Assembly (NCBI GenBank): GCA_012523975.1 | Contig: JAAYSF010000049.1 | Location: forward strand, 1-51,120 | DNA length: 51,120 nt | From: Veillonellaceae bacterium | Lineage (GTDB): Bacteria; Bacillota; Negativicutes; JAAYSF01 | Direction of reading: 5' to 3' | Part shown: positions 2,177 through 51,120 of the stretch, piece after piece | Numbering within the stretch: position 1 is the first letter of the stretch | How the letters are laid out: each line of letters starts with the position of its first letter | Notes under the pieces: generated by a model | Told to the model about the DNA's origin: nothing | What the model saw: the letters and a program-made list of their open reading frames with translations, nothing else | Database searches by the model: none | Translations under genes and position numbers: made by a program

Positions 2177-3004
2177 TTATTTTAATGCCTGACTATGTCT
2201 TTGTAAACTCAGCGCCAATGCGTTGGGAACAGTAAATTCACCCAACTTTTCTGGGTATCTCGATGGTATACCATGAAAGTCTGAACCACCAGTCACTATT
2301 AGTTTATATCTTTTAGCAAGCTGTAAATATTTATTTCTTTGTTCCTGATTATGTTTAGGATGGTAAACTTCGAGACCGCAAACACCATATTCGATCATTC
2401 TCAAGACTATACTCTCATCACCGATTAACCCAGGATGAGCTAGGACTGCAATTCCGCCTGCCCCGTTAATTAGCTTAATTGCTTGTTGTGGCTTAAGCTT
2501 ATAGTGTGGCACATATCCAGGTCCGTTTTTACAAAGCAGTTTCTCAAATGCGTCACCTACGGTCTGAAAGTATCCCTTTTCCACTAAGATTCTCGCAATA
2601 TATGGACGTCCAATTGAAGCGGTCGCTTTTGTGCTTTTTAGAACTTCTTCTTTAGTAATATTGTAACCTAAATCATTCAGCTTAGTAACAATCTTTTCTA
2701 TTCGCTGGCGGCGATCATTTGTAATACTAATAAGCTGCTTCTGTAATTGAGCATCAAATGGGTCAATATAGTAACCCAATAAATGCACTTCATGGTCGGG
2801 CATATCAATACTAAATTCAATCCCTGGTATGACAACTGGACTATGATTTAAGCAGAAATCCTTTAGACTAATAAGCCCATCAATTGTATCATGGTCGGTA
2901 ATAGCTATGAACGATAACCCGCACTCAGCAGCCTTAATTAAAACTTCTTCCGGCGAAAGGCGACCGTCTGAAGCAGTAGTATGGATATGAAGATCAGCAG
3001 GCAT
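2177..3004 (-). CDS. PHP-domain phosphoesterase (RNase AM / nucleoside bisphosphate phosphatase type)
   Basis: This is a 275-residue stand-alone PHP-family metal-dependent phosphoesterase. Metal-binding motifs are visible in order: DLHIHT at residues 4-9, ITDHDT near 36-41, LAHPG in the middle, and GGSDFHG near the C-terminus. Related proteins (YciV/TrpH type) hydrolyse 3',5'-nucleoside bisphosphates or trim RNA 5' ends. The start overlaps the end of pepA by 11 bases and has no clear ribosome site of its own, which suggests translational coupling to pepA. The exact substrate is not decided by sequence. Confidence 0.85.
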   Translation of the reverse strand: MPADLHIHTTASDGRLSPEEVLIKAAECGLSFIAITDHDTIDGLISLKDFCLNHSPVVIPGIEFSIDMPDHEVHLLGYYIDPFDAQLQKQLISITNDRRQRIEKIVTKLNDLGYNITKEEVLKSTKATASIGRPYIARILVEKGYFQTVGDAFEKLLCKNGPGYVPHYKLKPQQAIKLINGAGGIAVLAHPGLIGDESIVLRMIEYGVCGLEVYHPKHNQEQRNKYLQLAKRYKLIVTGGSDFHGIPSRYPEKLGEFTVPNALALSLQRHSQALK

Positions 3005-4502
3005 TAGTAGATAGATTTTGTGCTATTTGGACTAAAGTTCGCACTCCGACCCCAGTAGCGCCCTTCACGTTATAGCCACTAACTTTGTCAATATCGCTTG
3101 TACCTGCAATGTCTATGTGGACCCATGGAAGATCGCCCACAAATTGTTTAATAAATACGCCTGCCGTAATTGTTCCTGCCATCCGCCCTCCGGAGTTTTT
3201 CAAGTCGGCTATATCACTTTTTATTTGGTTTAAATAGTCGTCATAGCTGGGTAACAGCCACATCTTTTCCCCCGTTTGTTTAGAAGCTCTTAGAATTTCT
3301 TTCGACCAGCCATCATTATTGCTAATTAGGCCTGATGTTATATTACCTAAAGCGACTACACACGCTCCTGTTAGAGTCGCTAAATCGATAATTCTTGTAG
3401 CACCTAGCTTACGGGCGTAGGTAACAGCGTCCGCTAAGAGCAGCCGTCCTTCGGCATCGGTACTAATAATTTCAATAGTTTTTCCACTCATAGAACAAAT
3501 CACATCACCAGGTTTAAAAGCATGACCGGATGGCATATTCTCAGTGCAGGGGATAATTGCCAGAATATTGACCTTAGGTTTCAAATGACCTATGGCCTGC
3601 ATTGCAGCTAGAACAGCTGCTCCTCCGGCCATATCACCTTTCATATCGCCCATCTTTTCACTAGGCTTAAGTGAAATGCCTCCGCTGTCAAATGTAATCC
3701 CCTTTCCAACAAATGCTATCAGATCATTGCTCTGCTGATTACCAATGTATTTTAAAGTAATCATTTTTGGCGGTGTAGTGCTTCCTTGCGCAACTGCAAG
3801 CATTGCATACATCTTATGTTTTTCCATATCGCCTTTATCTAAAACGTTAATTTCGAATCCAAATTGGCTAGCAATATCCTGAGCGATAGACGCCATTTGG
3901 CTAGGATTCATGTAGCAGGATGGATGATTAGTTAAATCCCTAGCAAAATTTACGCTGTCAGCAATAACTTTTGCATTATTGAGCGTAAGCAGCCACTCTT
4001 GATCACTTGGAAGATCTGGACCTACAAGAATTATTTTTTCAATAATATTGCTCTTGGCATCAGTTTTGTAATTGTTAAATTCATAGCTTCCTAAAATTGC
4101 TCCCTGAATAATTGATATTGCAGCATCACTTAAGTTGTGATGATTTCTATAAATAGCAGTAGCCACCGTTCTAGACTTCAGTTTTTTGGCAACGCGGATT
4201 GCGATCGCAGAAAGTTCACGAATTTTATCCAATGTCAGTTTATCCTTTTTGCCTAATCCGATTATTACTATGCGTTTAGAGCCATAATCAGCAGTGTTGT
4301 GGATAATAGTTGTTTCAGCTAATTGACAACATTCTGGCTGGTCTCGGACCATTAAACTAAGTAGAGTTGCTAATGGATTCCCATAAGCTCTAGCCATCTC
4401 CACACTATTTAGGGTTTCGTCAAGCAAACCTATTATTAGTGTGTCGCAGAAGACTTCTCCTGGTAAAACATTAGCACATGCAATCTGCAAACTCCTCACC
4501 AT
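2994..4502 (-). CDS. pepA: M17 leucyl aminopeptidase
   Basis: This cytosolic, two-metal aminopeptidase removes N-terminal residues from peptides. All family residues can be placed: metal ligands K267, D272, D290, D349 and E351, and catalytic K279 and R353 within the NTDAEGR-type motif (here STDAEGRLLLAD). At 502 residues it has the usual length, with a variable N-terminal domain and a conserved C-terminal catalytic domain from about residue 175. The ATG at 4500-4502 has GGAAG nine bases upstream, but the segment is rich in purines and a start a few codons later is possible. It is the first gene of a unit with the PHP protein. Confidence 0.95.
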   Translation of the reverse strand: MVRSLQIACANVLPGEVFCDTLIIGLLDETLNSVEMARAYGNPLATLLSLMVRDQPECCQLAETTIIHNTADYGSKRIVIIGLGKKDKLTLDKIRELSAIAIRVAKKLKSRTVATAIYRNHHNLSDAAISIIQGAILGSYEFNNYKTDAKSNIIEKIILVGPDLPSDQEWLLTLNNAKVIADSVNFARDLTNHPSCYMNPSQMASIAQDIASQFGFEINVLDKGDMEKHKMYAMLAVAQGSTTPPKMITLKYIGNQQSNDLIAFVGKGITFDSGGISLKPSEKMGDMKGDMAGGAAVLAAMQAIGHLKPKVNILAIIPCTENMPSGHAFKPGDVICSMSGKTIEIISTDAEGRLLLADAVTYARKLGATRIIDLATLTGACVVALGNITSGLISNNDGWSKEILRASKQTGEKMWLLPSYDDYLNQIKSDIADLKNSGGRMAGTITAGVFIKQFVGDLPWVHIDIAGTSDIDKVSGYNVKGATGVGVRTLVQIAQNLSTNAC

Positions 4503-4627: not shown

Positions 4628-4888
4628 TTAGCGCGGCTCAATAATTAGTTTCATAGCGGTGCGTTCTTCACCGTCAATTAAAATGTCAGTAAAGGCAGGG
4701 ATGCATATAAGATCTACGCCGTGTGGAGCAACAAACCCTCTTGCGATTGCTACTGCCTTAACCGCTTGGTTAAGTGCTCCAGCGCCGATGGCTTGCATTT
4801 CAGCTCCACCGCGTTCTCTTAGCACTCCAGCCAAAGCGCCTGCTACCGAATTAGGATTAGATTTTGCTGATACTTTTAAGACTTCCAT
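4628..4888 (-). CDS. spoVS: stage V sporulation protein S
   Basis: The 86-residue protein is a near-perfect SpoVS: it begins MEVLKVSAKSNPNSVAGALA and has the conserved centre GALNQAVKAVAIARG and end KLIIEPR. SpoVS is a small Alba-like nucleic-acid-binding protein that affects entry into and progress through sporulation in Bacillus. The ATG follows AAAGGAGGG. A sigma-H-like promoter lies at 4942-4968, consistent with the sigma-H control known for B. subtilis spoVS. It lies downstream of rny as in Bacillus, with ymdB missing between them. Confidence 0.97.
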   Translation of the reverse strand: MEVLKVSAKSNPNSVAGALAGVLRERGGAEMQAIGAGALNQAVKAVAIARGFVAPHGVDLICIPAFTDILIDGEERTAMKLIIEPR

Positions 4889-4941: not shown

Positions 4942-4968
4942 ATATTCGTTATTTGACCAGAAAATCCC
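4942..4968 (-). promoter_or_regulatory. sigma-H-type promoter of spoVS
   Basis: On the minus strand GGGATTT is followed by exactly 14 bases and GAATAT. This matches the sigma-H layout AGGATTT-N14-GAAT known from Bacillus spoVG, with one mismatch in the upstream element. It lies about 55 bases before the spoVS ATG. Confidence 0.6.
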
Positions 4969-5017
4969 TTTTTTTACATTAATAAAAATTCAAATAATTT
5001 AAATAAATTTAAAATAA

Positions 5018-5058
5018 AATGAACAGAGTAATTTATACAATTACTCTGTTCATTTTAT
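5018..5058 (-). terminator. terminator after the gene at 5055-5576
   Basis: A long AT-rich inverted repeat (AAAATGAACAGAGTAATT and its complement) closes on a five-base loop and includes the stop codon of the preceding gene. TTTTATTTT follows on the minus strand. Confidence 0.8.
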
Positions 5059-5576
5059 TTGTTGAAAACTAGCACTCGACCGTCTTCCCTAATCCCTATT
5101 AAGCTATTATTTCCATGGTATTGCTTCTTCATGCTTTCAAGCATAGTTTCAATAACTTCTTCTTGCATAACCAAATCTTCCTCAAGCAAACTATCATTGT
5201 AATCTATTACTAGACGGTCTTGAAATTTGTCGCGTAATAGGGTAATAATAAGCGCTATCTCAGCCTTTGTCAATGAACAGACATCGCGGATAATATGCAT
5301 CATTGTCATTTGTCCATATGTGCTAAATTCTATTTCTGCGATTTTCATGTTTGTATTCTCAAGTAAATGGTAAGCGCTGATACTATCGGTTAAAAGCTGC
5401 TTAAATTCCATACACTTAGTCTGTGTTGATAAATTAGACAATATGAAAGTTAACTTAAGAGAATTTGTTCTTGGGTCAAAATTTATTGTTCCAATTTCGG
5501 GATAGCACACTAAAATAGAAATCAGTAAATTTACGCCATCCGAAATGTTTTCATCATCTTGATGATATTTAGACAT
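5055..5576 (-). CDS. uncharacterised protein, possibly sporulation-related
   Basis: This 173-residue soluble, slightly acidic protein (MSKYHQDDENISDGVN at the start, LIGIREDGRVLVFN at the end) matches no family I recognise. There is no signal peptide, membrane segment or catalytic motif. The start chosen is the ATG at 5574-5576, preceded by GGTGAA; TTG at 5598 and ATG at 5592 are in frame but have no ribosome site. The gene has its own terminator and an upstream element (5631-5657) resembling the sigma-H promoter of the adjacent spoVS. It lies where ymdB is found in Bacillus but is not YmdB, because no phosphodiesterase motifs are present. Confidence 0.7.
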   Translation of the reverse strand: MSKYHQDDENISDGVNLLISILVCYPEIGTINFDPRTNSLKLTFILSNLSTQTKCMEFKQLLTDSISAYHLLENTNMKIAEIEFSTYGQMTMMHIIRDVCSLTKAEIALIITLLRDKFQDRLVIDYNDSLLEEDLVMQEEVIETMLESMKKQYHGNNSLIGIREDGRVLVFNK

Positions 5577-5630
5577 TAAAGGTTCACCATCCATTAGCAA
5601 AAATAAAAATGTTTTAGTAGACTATAAATA

Positions 5631-5657
5631 TAGTTCTCTAGATATTAGATAAATCCT
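5631..5657 (-). promoter_or_regulatory. possible sigma-H-type promoter
   Basis: On the minus strand AGGATTT, a 14-base spacer and GAACTA match the sigma-H layout except for C in place of T in the GAAT core. It lies about 55 bases upstream of the ATG at 5576. Confidence 0.4.
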
Positions 5658-5699
5658 TTTTAAAATTAATGGAAGCAATGATCCCTGTTTAATCATAAC

Positions 5700-5936
5700 C
5701 CCCCGTCAAATGGGTGGATTGCACTAAACCTTTTCAAGCGGTTGTCATTATGCGTTTTTCACATAAGGGCGTCTTTTTCGAATGATATAAAGGACAGATT
5801 TGGCAAGTAGGATATCCTGAACAGCTTGCTGTCGGTAATCATGAATACTATCCGTGTTTGTTGTACTAGGGCATGCATAAGACTTATGGTTTTGTTCAAG
5901 ATAAATGACGTGAGCAACTTTAAAATTCAGGAAGTT
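5700..5936 (-). pseudogene. remnant of an ISL3-family transposase N-terminus
   Basis: The otherwise empty interval between the unknown gene and rny decodes on the minus strand, from 5936 to 5751, as about 62 residues that resemble the start of ISL3-type transposases: NFKVAHVIYLEQN, then IHDYRQQAVQD, then LYIIRKRRPYV. These match the family's zinc-ribbon lead-in and its IHDYR and KRRY segments, although the zinc cysteines are largely lost (one remains in YACPS). Two stop codons follow at 5745-5750, and a shifted frame reads NRLKRFSAIHPF, like the next family segment (KRF...NPF). There is no start, no catalytic region and no visible inverted repeats, so it is a decayed fragment. Confidence 0.7.
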
Positions 5937-5962
5937 TCACTTTTATTCATTTTCTTAAAAAA

Positions 5963-6006
5963 AATGTTGAGGTATTACCAGGTATGAAACTGGTTACCCC
6001 AACATT
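5963..6006 (-). terminator. terminator after rny
   Basis: A long stem pairs AATGTTGAGGTA-TTACCAG with CTGGTTACCCCAACATT, followed on the minus strand by eight Ts, 16 bases after the rny stop. Confidence 0.85.
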
Positions 6007-6021
6007 TATTATAGAACCTTA

Positions 6022-7563
6022 TTATTTTGCATAATCGATAGCGCGTGTCTCACGAATTACAGTTACTTTTATCTGGCCTGGATACTCAAGCTCACTCTCG
6101 ATTTTCTTTACAATATCGCGTACTAAACGAACAGACGAAAGATCATCAATCTTATCCGGCTTTACCATGATTCGGATTTCACGACCAGCTTGAATAGCAA
6201 AAGATTTATCGACACCTTCAAACGATTCAGCAATGTCCTCTAACCGAGTCAATCGTTTTAGATAGCTTTCAAGGCTTTCCCTACGTGCACCCGGTCGAGC
6301 AGCCGATACAGCATCGGCCGCGGCAATCAATACCGCTTGAACTGTTTTCGGTTCTTCATCTCCATGATGAGCTCCGATAGCATTTATCACTTCTGCTGAC
6401 TCACGATATTTTTTTGCTAAATCAGCACCGATTGTTACATGAGGCCCCTCAACTTCATGGTCAACCGCTTTGCCAATATCGTGCAAGAGGCCTGCACGCT
6501 TGGCTAACATAATATCCACGCCGAGTTCCGCAGCCATTACCCCAGCTAAGTGGGAAACCTCTATTGAGTGTTTCAACACATTTTGACCATAGCTTGTACG
6601 GAATTTCAGTCGTCCCAAGAGTCTTATTAACTCAGGATGTAGTCCATAGACACCAGTTTCAAAGGTAGCCTGCTCACCAGCTTCTTTTATTCGCTGCTCA
6701 ACCTCTTTTTGGGCCTTTTCTACCATTTCCTCTATTCGAGCCGGATGAATACGCCCATCAGTTATTAATTTTTCTAAGGCAATCCTGGCAACCTCACGAC
6801 GTACTGGGTCAAAACCAGATAATATGACAGCCTCCGGAGTATCATCTATAATTAGATCAATACCGGTGAGAGTCTCTAAAGTACGGATATTTCGTCCTTC
6901 GCGGCCAATTATGCGGCCTTTCATCTCATCATTAGGCAATGCAACGACCGATACAGTTGTTTCAGCTACATGGTCAGCTGCACAGCGCTGTATAGCTAAA
7001 GAAATTATTTCACGAGCTCGTTTGTCCGCCTCTTCTTTTGCCTGTTGCTCTAGTTCTTTAATCATCATAGCAGTTTCATGCTTTATTTCTTCTTGAGCAC
7101 TGGCAAGAAGCATATTTCTTGCTTCTTCTGATGTAAAGCCAGACAGTCTCTCTAATTCAGCTAATTGCTTAGTGTATAACTCATTGACCTTTTCCTGACT
7201 TTTGTCTAGCTCGATTTCTTTACGATTAAGTACTTCTTCTTTTTTCTCGAGCGAGTCAATTTTCCGGTCAAGATTTTCTTCTTTCTGTAGTAAACGACGT
7301 TCTAGACGCTGCAATTCGGAGCGGCGTTCCTTTGTTTCGCGATCGAGTTCGTTCCGCAATTTATGAATTTCCTCTTTCGCTTCGACAAGGGATTCTTTCT
7401 TTTTAGCTTCTCCTGCTCGTTCAGCATCTTCAATTATTTTTCTTGCAGCATCTTCAGCAGAGGAAATTTGGGCTTCAGCGCTTTTCTTGCGCGCAAAATA
7501 ACCTATGCCGAATCCTAAAATAATAGCAATGATGGCCGTTAGCATACTTTCAATAATTTCCAC
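6022..7563 (-). CDS. rny: ribonuclease Y
   Basis: This membrane-anchored endoribonuclease starts mRNA decay in Firmicutes. In order: an N-terminal membrane helix (residues about 7-23), a long coiled coil (to about 150), a KH RNA-binding domain ([10 protein letters not shown] near 215-225) and an HD catalytic domain ([10 protein letters not shown] near 360). The length of about 510 residues is normal. The start is unresolved: the GTG at 7561-7563 lies inside the strong AAGGAGGTG ribosome site and cannot easily serve it. The next usable codons are an ATT at 7552-7554, ideally spaced, and an ATG at 7543-7545, 17 bases away. A sigma-A promoter lies at 7715-7743. The position between recA and spoVS matches Bacillus. 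Confidence 0.95.
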
Positions 7564-28982: not shown

Positions 28983-29152
28983 AGATGAGATAGCGCTCCA
29001 CCAAAAGCTATGGTGACAGTCTTAAACCTATTCGACTTAAGACCAGTACGAAGTCTTGGTAAAACTTTCGCACTTCGGCGGTTAACCCTTTTCTTTCAGA
29101 TCATAGAAACCACTCTCCCTGAAAGTACTAATGTTACCCGCACCTCTACTGC
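28983..29152 (-). ncRNA. lysine riboswitch (L box) aptamer
   Basis: The minus-strand leader of dapB contains the lysine-aptamer core in order: AGAGGTGCG, AGTA, GCCGAAG, CTGG, CTGTCA and GGAGCGCTATCTC, with the paired helices of the five-way junction visible between them. A sigma-A promoter starts the leader about 30 bases upstream and a terminator ends it just before dapB. Lysine binding should lower expression of dapB-asd-dapG-dapA by premature termination. Boundaries are approximate. Confidence 0.93.
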
Positions 29153-29189
29153 ACCCTATGCAGGGGTATCATTCTATTGAATTACATTT

Positions 29190-49737: not shown

Positions 49738-51120
49738 TTAGACATGCGAGATACGATTATCTAGCTCTGAGCGCTTAGCATCATTAAACCGATCTACTGT
49801 ACTTAAATATCCGGTAATACGACGAACTCGTCTAATATCAGACGTATTACATACTGGGCAGCTATCGCTGTCAATTACACCTAAATATCCACAGCTCTCA
49901 CAAAAATCTACCGGGAAATTAATTCCGGCATACCCAAAATCGCACTCTTTCATATAACGAATTATATCTTCAATTGCGCCAAGGTTATTTATCGGCGGCG
50001 CGCTAAATTCAACATAACTTATATGGCCGGCGTTAGTGTACTTATGATAGACACCTTCAAGCTTGACTTTTTCAAAAACACTTATTGGATATTCAACAGG
50101 GACATGGAATGAATTTGTATAATAATCTTTGTCAGTAACGCCCGCAATTAAACCATATTCCTGCCTATCCATTTTTATAAACCGTCCTGATAAGCCTTCG
50201 GCTGGGGTGGCCAATAAGGTATAATTCAAATTATATCGATCAGCTGCTTTATCGACCTTGTTACGCATAAAAGCAATAATCTCTTCGCCCAACGCCTGAG
50301 ATTCCTCATTTTCACCATGATGATATCCCGTCAGAGCGGTAAGTGCCTCAGCTAAGCCAATAAATCCTACCGATAGCGTACCATGCTTGATAACATCTTC
50401 AATTATATCATTAGGCTTAAGTTTTTCGGAATCTAAATAGAGGCCTTGTCCCATTAAAAACGGCATATCTCGAACTTTCAGCTTACATTGAACCTGATAA
50501 CGATGGTATAGCTGCTCACATGTCAAATCAATTAAGTCGGAAAGACTCTGATAGAACTTCATCAGATTGCGCTCAGCTTTTATTGCTAATCGAGGTAAGT
50601 TAATCGTAGTAAAACTTAAGTTGCCACGGCCATCTGTAACTTCTGGACCGCACTTGTTGGACATAACCCTGGTACGGCATCCCATATAACTTACCTGGTC
50701 GCCAAATGGCTTGTTAAACGAAGAATCCATAAAGCTAAAGGTGGGATTTAACCGCTGAGCGGCTACTCGAATAGCCAATTTGAATAAATCATAATTAGGC
50801 TCACCGGGATTTAGATTGACCCCGTCTTTTACTCGGAATATAATATTCGGAAAAATTGGATTCTCCCCGCGTCCTAAACCTTTCTCATACGCCAGTAGTA
50901 TGTTTTTGGTCACCATTCGGCCTTCCGGTGTTGTATCAGTTCCAACATTAAGGCTTGAAAAAGGAACCTGTGCACCAGCCCTACTATGCATACTATTAAG
51001 GTTATATATTAAAGCCTCCATTGCTTGATAAACTTCTTCTTCACTGGCCTTTGCCATAAAAGGAGCTATATCACGATCAAAAAAAGCAAAAGATTGCCCG
51101 CCATGCATATCGTTCTGTGA
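49738..51120 (-). CDS. nrdD: anaerobic ribonucleoside-triphosphate reductase, C-terminal part (cut by window end)
   Basis: NrdD is the class III ribonucleotide reductase, using a glycyl radical to make deoxyribonucleotides without oxygen. About 460 C-terminal residues are in the window; the frame is open through the right edge (SQNDMHGGQSFAFFD near the break), so the gene continues beyond. Visible features: VGFIGLAEALTALTGYH, the zinc site CESCGYLGV...CPVC near the end, and the glycyl-radical loop RRITGYLSTVDRFNDAK. nrdG follows directly. The pair shows that the organism can replicate DNA anaerobically. Confidence 0.96.
   Translation of the reverse strand, partial: SQNDMHGGQSFAFFDRDIAPFMAKASEEEVYQAMEALIYNLNSMHSRAGAQVPFSSLNVGTDTTPEGRMVTKNILLAYEKGLGRGENPIFPNIIFRVKDGVNLNPGEPNYDLFKLAIRVAAQRLNPTFSFMDSSFNKPFGDQVSYMGCRTRVMSNKCGPEVTDGRGNLSFTTINLPRLAIKAERNLMKFYQSLSDLIDLTCEQLYHRYQVQCKLKVRDMPFLMGQGLYLDSEKLKPNDIIEDVIKHGTLSVGFIGLAEALTALTGYHHGENEESQALGEEIIAFMRNKVDKAADRYNLNYTLLATPAEGLSGRFIKMDRQEYGLIAGVTDKDYYTNSFHVPVEYPISVFEKVKLEGVYHKYTNAGHISYVEFSAPPINNLGAIEDIIRYMKECDFGYAGINFPVDFCESCGYLGVIDSDSCPVCNTSDIRRVRRITGYLSTVDRFNDAKRSELDNRISHV

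Follow-up and report, generated by a model that had tools for sequence, protein, structure and literature searches.

An uncharacterised gene behind rny in Negativicutes with a predicted sigma-H promoter that tracks sporulation

On the minus strand of the 51,120-nucleotide stretch of a Veillonellaceae genome analysed here (the window), a small gene of no recognised family, referred to as X, lies next to spoVS. The question raised by this locus is whether X belongs to the early sporulation programme, as the layout of its promoter had suggested in the original prediction, or whether it serves the cell in some other way. The comparison of genomes described below gives a testable place in that programme to a family that is absent from Pfam and NCBIfam and common to many anaerobic spore-formers.

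Gene X and its neighbours

X is an intact reading frame of 173 amino acids (5055..5576, minus strand; ATG at 5576, stop codon at 5055-5057), recognised as the gene of an alpha/beta protein from its relatives and from an AlphaFold2 model. The start codon is preceded by a probable ribosome-binding site, GGATGGTGA (5584..5592, minus strand), with GGTGA at equal spacing in most relatives. Searches of X and its relatives against Pfam and NCBIfam gave no consistent family match, and these searches, like those against PDB sequences, returned only scattered matches at chance level; the original description of a 173-residue protein without recognised family holds. Literature searches on rny, ymdB and spoVS in combination, or on the gene itself, yielded no description of X. 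Of 380 genomes of the class, 241 carry X, as a single copy in all those listed but one. A scan of named genomes also placed it in Desulfotomaculum-, Desulfofundulus-, Moorella- and Thermincola-type organisms and in 'Candidatus Formimonas', and in a sample of 299 genomes from the Moorella phylum, which overlaps the class, 169 were found to have it.

The minus-strand gene order in the window is recA, recX, rny, X, spoVS, an aminopeptidase-like gene and a PHP-domain-like gene. The upstream neighbour, rny, encodes RNase Y (6022..7563, minus strand; assigned from its translation and from synteny), and the product of spoVS, with 86 amino acids (4628..4888, minus strand), matches Pfam PF04232 with an E-value of 2.6e-38. 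The leucyl-aminopeptidase-like gene 3′ of spoVS (2994..4502, minus strand) belongs to the conserved neighbourhood by synteny, its identity being taken from inspection of the translation only. Wherever the upstream sequence is long enough to judge (138 loci, with some genomes represented twice), rny lies directly 5′ of X, as it does in 39 of 40 further genomes, and the loss of spoVS or ymdB does not break the pairing. Judged from gene order, the constant neighbour of X is rny and not spoVS.

The usual order in relatives is rny-X-ymdB-spoVS, with ymdB directly 3′ of X, and in spore-formers that lack X, rny is followed by ymdB. The window and Sporomusa-type genomes lack ymdB at this position between X and spoVS, and a search with the YmdB profile found no match anywhere in the genome of the window or in 17 relatives of the same arrangement; a match is present in three other genomes (G001, G073 and G081). 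X had been thought to occupy the place of ymdB, a view that must be given up. Because the two genes coexist in relatives and ymdB is absent here, X did not replace ymdB; rather, ymdB was lost from the genome of the window.

Two predicted intrinsic terminators flank X on the minus strand. The first forms a hairpin 15 bp behind rny (5963..6006, about -20.6 kcal/mol, then a T-run) and separates X from rny transcription, and the second lies directly behind X (5019..5053, about -19.1 kcal/mol, then a T-rich run) and separates it from spoVS. With hairpins behind both rny and X, the latter is probably its own transcription unit; a terminator behind rny is found in 26 of 29 spore-formers. The gap between rny and X measures 445 bp in the window, compared with about 150 bp in near relatives, and the extra sequence of about 290 bp (5665-5960) sits between the terminator and the promoter. 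An Rfam search of the X region, this extra sequence included, gave no family match; elsewhere in the window, a lysine riboswitch (RF00168, 123 bits) lies at 28983-29156 on the minus strand. At three loci of asporogenous genomes (L035, L078 and L089) the gap widens to 1.2-2 kb, apparently through the insertion of other genes, and the end of the insert at L035 reads like NadC by eye.

X has diverged at about four times the rate of RNase Y, the ratio being 4.3 in genomes with sporulation and 4.1 in those without. In close pairs of asporogenous genomes the dN/dS of X is 0.02-0.08, indicating strong purifying selection, and X thus has a function independent of sporulation.

Sigma-H-type sites and sporulation

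Sigma-H-type sites were scored against the consensus RNAGGAWWW-N11/12-RNNGAAT, which has 13 specified positions. On the minus strand before X, a putative -35 element, AAAGGATTT (5651..5659), matches RNAGGAWWW in full at a position conserved across spore-formers, and a putative -10 element, AGAGAAC (5633..5639), departs from RNNGAAT only in its last base, C for T; AGAGAAT is the -10 element of X in most Sporomusa-type relatives. The spacer is 11 bp, the distance to the ATG is 56 bp, and 12 of the 13 positions agree. The same scoring gives spoVS a -35 element, AAGGGATTT (4962..4970, minus strand), and a -10 element, AACGAAT (4944..4950, minus strand), with a spacer of 11 bp, 55 bp to the ATG and, again, 12 of 13 positions. 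Both of the sigma-H-like motifs that had been noticed before these two genes are therefore present at the spacing described. A score of 12 was reached by 6 of 500 (X) and 9 of 500 (spoVS) dinucleotide shuffles of the 150 bp upstream, and the two strands of the window hold 13 sites at the 12/13 level in total. Since 1-2% of shuffles equal each site, the window alone makes a weak case, which is lifted above chance by conservation across species. Other sigma-H-like sites in the window that score 12/13 with intact GGA and GAA cores lie at 2053, 14759 and 43565 on the minus strand and at 50084 on the plus strand.

The genome of the window carries SpoIVA, three SpoIIP-like proteins, two SpoVS proteins and a SigH that matches TIGR02859 above cut-off (G000:C50:24530-25126, E 1.2e-112). 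The SigH profile was matched by all 75 genomes tested, by 67 of them above cut-off. The second SpoVS paralogue lies outside the window (G000:C17:24371-24619); two copies are found in most spore-forming relatives as well, and one or none in Selenomonadaceae-type genomes. Sixty-one X-bearing genomes of the class were examined, comprising 29 with SpoIIP or SpoIVA and 32 with neither (G082 being classed by SpoIVA alone), which are treated here as spore-formers and asporogenous genomes. The SigH profile is matched by every one of the 32 asporogenous genomes.

For each genome, the X site was taken as the best sigma-H match within 155 bp before X, with a threshold of at least 12 of 13. A site at this level precedes X in 25 of 29 spore-formers and in 1 of 32 asporogenous X-bearers of the class, with 0.4 genomes per group expected from shuffles (Fisher p 6e-12, a value that ignores shared ancestry). 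The spore-formers without a good site are L036 and L037, which are of one genus, L044 (11/13) and L048; at L047 a site of 13/13 lies 127 bp from the ATG. The asporogenous exception is the Propionispira-like G146, the first branch among Selenomonadaceae-type genomes. On the best rny tree the asporogenous genomes form five groups and the sporulation state changes five times, with two of these changes required by branches of good support; the X site is absent from all five groups, G146 excepted. Asporogenous genomes belong mostly to one clade, so that only a small number of losses are independent (two pairs on starred branches of the rny tree). In a replicate set of 40 further genomes, picked only for having X and all SpoIIP-positive, the X site reached at least 12 in 29, and several others scored 11 at the same distance.

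Control genes set these counts in proportion. Among spore-formers, a score of at least 12 was obtained for 69 of 90 sequences before X and 73 of 81 before spoVS, compared with 0 of 89 for rny, 0 of 44 for recX and 1 of 70 for ymdB, and the further controls pepA, php and recA gave 1 of 27, 6 of 69 and 8 of 73, respectively. No sigma-H-type site of that score was found before ymdB in 11 X-less genomes, which indicates that the site goes with X; the idea that the site was ymdB's own and predated the arrival of X is not supported by this count. The spoVS site is retained in 17 of 20 asporogenous genomes with spoVS at this place, showing that the scoring is not blind there. Sigma-A promoters, a possible switch, were seen before X in 13 of 32 asporogenous genomes, where 8.1 were expected, and the difference is not clear. 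As far as predicted sites can tell, the promoter of X comes and goes with sporulation, while that of spoVS persists without it.

The prediction that X and spoVS share an early sporulation regulon thus stands in part. Both genes have conserved sigma-H-type sites, the genome has a gene for SigH, and the X site is nearly confined to spore-formers. The gene itself is not so confined, because homologues are common in asporogenous relatives too, but its promoter tracks sporulation. The phylogenetic profile rules out a strictly sporulation-specific X, given the 32 X-bearing genomes without SpoIIP or SpoIVA; 11 asporogenous X-bearing genomes lack SpoVS, and most members of a large asporogenous family (f20) keep X. 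Conversely, SpoIIP was present in 17 of 20 X-less genomes tested from the wider group, and with many spore-formers there lacking X, the gene is not required for sporulation in general. The locus offers a clean case in which a gene appears to lose its sigma-H promoter along with sporulation and stays under selection, with the promoter of the neighbouring spoVS retained, and a comparison of this kind tells apart the sigma-H targets that belong to sporulation and those with other uses. Bacillus clusters are without X, so that screens in Bacillus cannot address such a separation through this gene.

Predicted fold

AlphaFold2 models of X from the window (mean pLDDT 88.8) and of a remote homologue that is 28% identical to it (pLDDT 85.5) agree on an alpha-bb-alpha-bb-alpha core followed by a helix and a C-terminal hairpin. 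Near-invariant residues are L17, L18 and P26-E27 in the first helix, R97-D98 and E106 further on, and G161, R163-E164, R167-V168 and V170 in the C-terminal hairpin. No enzyme motif or family is recognised in X, and Foldseek searches of the models against the PDB and viral models gave no match with E <=0.001.

The best VIA-align match of the window model was to YbjN/AmyR, of class I secretion-chaperone-like fold (6vu7_C; Z 6.7, rmsd 3.3, 107 residues), and this fold matched the two X models with Z of 6.7 and 6.0, among many rows of similar Z. YbjN and secretion-chaperone-like proteins are thought to work by protein binding without enzyme activity (PMC5398634). The match to X remains below Z 8, however, and YbjN as a true relative of X was rejected on sequence, the hhalign probability being 0.1 against one E. 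coli YbjN sequence. The DCoH (pterin-carbinolamine dehydratase) fold has the same alpha-bb-alpha-bb-alpha order and came out on top for the second model (2ebb; Z 7.0, rmsd 2.8, 87 residues), whereas the window model matched this type only through 4low_B, with Z 4.9. X differs from DCoH in having no Pfam match, no dehydratase active-site motif by eye, and an extra C-terminal helix and hairpin. On the models, both likenesses are below the level at which they would mean more than a common arrangement.

Possible roles of X

The reading judged likely is that X is a non-enzymatic, adaptor-like protein with a sigma-H promoter of its own, used at the start of sporulation, and with a role outside sporulation too. 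Its parts differ in strength. The gene, its synteny, the purifying selection on it, and the conservation of the predicted promoter with its loss alongside sporulation are apparent from the compared genomes, and it is highly probable from them that X has its own sigma-H promoter; we infer that transcription of X would depend on sigma-H and be timed accordingly. A role for X in sporulation has somewhat better than an even chance. The assignment as an adaptor-type protein is tentative, and because no fold match exceeded Z 7.0 it draws largely on the absence of other signals. In outline, X is a single-copy gene conserved directly behind rny in Negativicutes and several other anaerobic spore-forming lineages (Desulfotomaculum-, Moorella- and Thermincola-type), and in spore-formers it would be transcribed from its own promoter, between the rny terminator and, in the genome of the window, the X terminator. 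With such a promoter, X would be produced at the transition from growth to sporulation, simultaneously with SpoVS. The protein would most likely bind other proteins as an adaptor in some cell-wide regulatory step shared by non-sporulating bacteria, and a lineage losing sporulation could retain X while dropping the sigma-H promoter. A more far-reaching proposal, which is improbable, would couple the RNase Y/YmdB neighbourhood to the sporulation decision through X as a lineage-specific regulator: at the onset of sporulation sigma-H would raise the level of X, which would then redirect mRNA decay or some other process across the cell, and in lineages that lose sporulation the loss of one promoter would return X to a housekeeping protein.

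Several other explanations of the locus have to be weighed against an adaptor under sigma-H control. In Sporomusa sphaeroides, a relative, a sigma-H motif precedes 322 mapped start sites, acetogenesis genes among them, and SigH rises under H2/CO2 (PMC12456013). With sigma-H serving many metabolic genes in Sporomusa, its control alone is no proof of a role in sporulation, and X is functional without sporulation; the promoter could be real and X could serve stationary-phase or autotrophic metabolism, the loss of the promoter in asporogenous lineages following a change of life-style. This is rather unlikely, as asporogenous Selenomonadaceae-type genomes keep the sigma-H factor and mostly the spoVS site, yet have lost the X site, which occurs in lineages of varied physiology (as generally known) that share sporulation. 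The co-loss of the X site with sporulation is a stronger argument for a sporulation role than sigma-H control is. That the motif is a chance match, with X transcribed by read-through from rny or from a housekeeping promoter, would accord with the shuffles of the window but is very improbable, given that sequence and distance are conserved over a wide range of spore-formers, that such sites are rare before control genes and that the site is missing in asporogenous relatives with a single exception.

Gene order also invites explanations through the neighbours. RNase Y of Bacillus acts together with small partner proteins, the Y-complex proteins YlbF, YmcA and YaaT, and with rny so constantly upstream, X could be an accessory factor that acts on mRNA decay by binding the nuclease, with a greater effect once sigma-H has raised the level of X at the onset of sporulation. 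X resembles the Y-complex proteins in its link with RNase Y, in its case by gene neighbourhood only, and has no family match. An accessory role is unlikely: many genomes have RNase Y without X, the terminator and X's own predicted promoter divide the transcription units in spore-formers, and G542 (locus L203) keeps X intact, the local gene order being recA-X-ymdB, with no RNase Y found genome-wide, although this is one genome of unknown completeness with a local rny deletion inside one contig. An obligate partnership with RNase Y is weakened by this genome. The phosphodiesterase YmdB (TIGR00282-type) shares the cluster, and X, sitting where Bacillus has ymdB next to spoVS in a genome without ymdB, might be its functional substitute. 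X and ymdB stand side by side in most relatives, however, the two are of different families, with no PF13277 match among X and 53 relatives in the Pfam search, and ymdB was lost here while X stayed, so that substitution is the faintest of prospects.

SpoVS resembles X in its setting, with the same neighbourhood, the same type of promoter, a nearly equal distance from promoter to ATG and retention in non-sporulating bacteria. The two share no common family, X is twice as long, and the spoVS site, unlike that of X, mostly survives the loss of sporulation. In Bacillus thuringiensis, spoVS has been shown to be sigma-H-dependent (PMC8510167). The retained sites suggest that SpoVS may have a sigma-H-controlled role without sporulation. 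A near-perfect spoVS sigma-H site together with a SigH gene is found in asporogenous Selenomonadaceae-type genomes at L073, L075, L080, L085, L086 and other loci.
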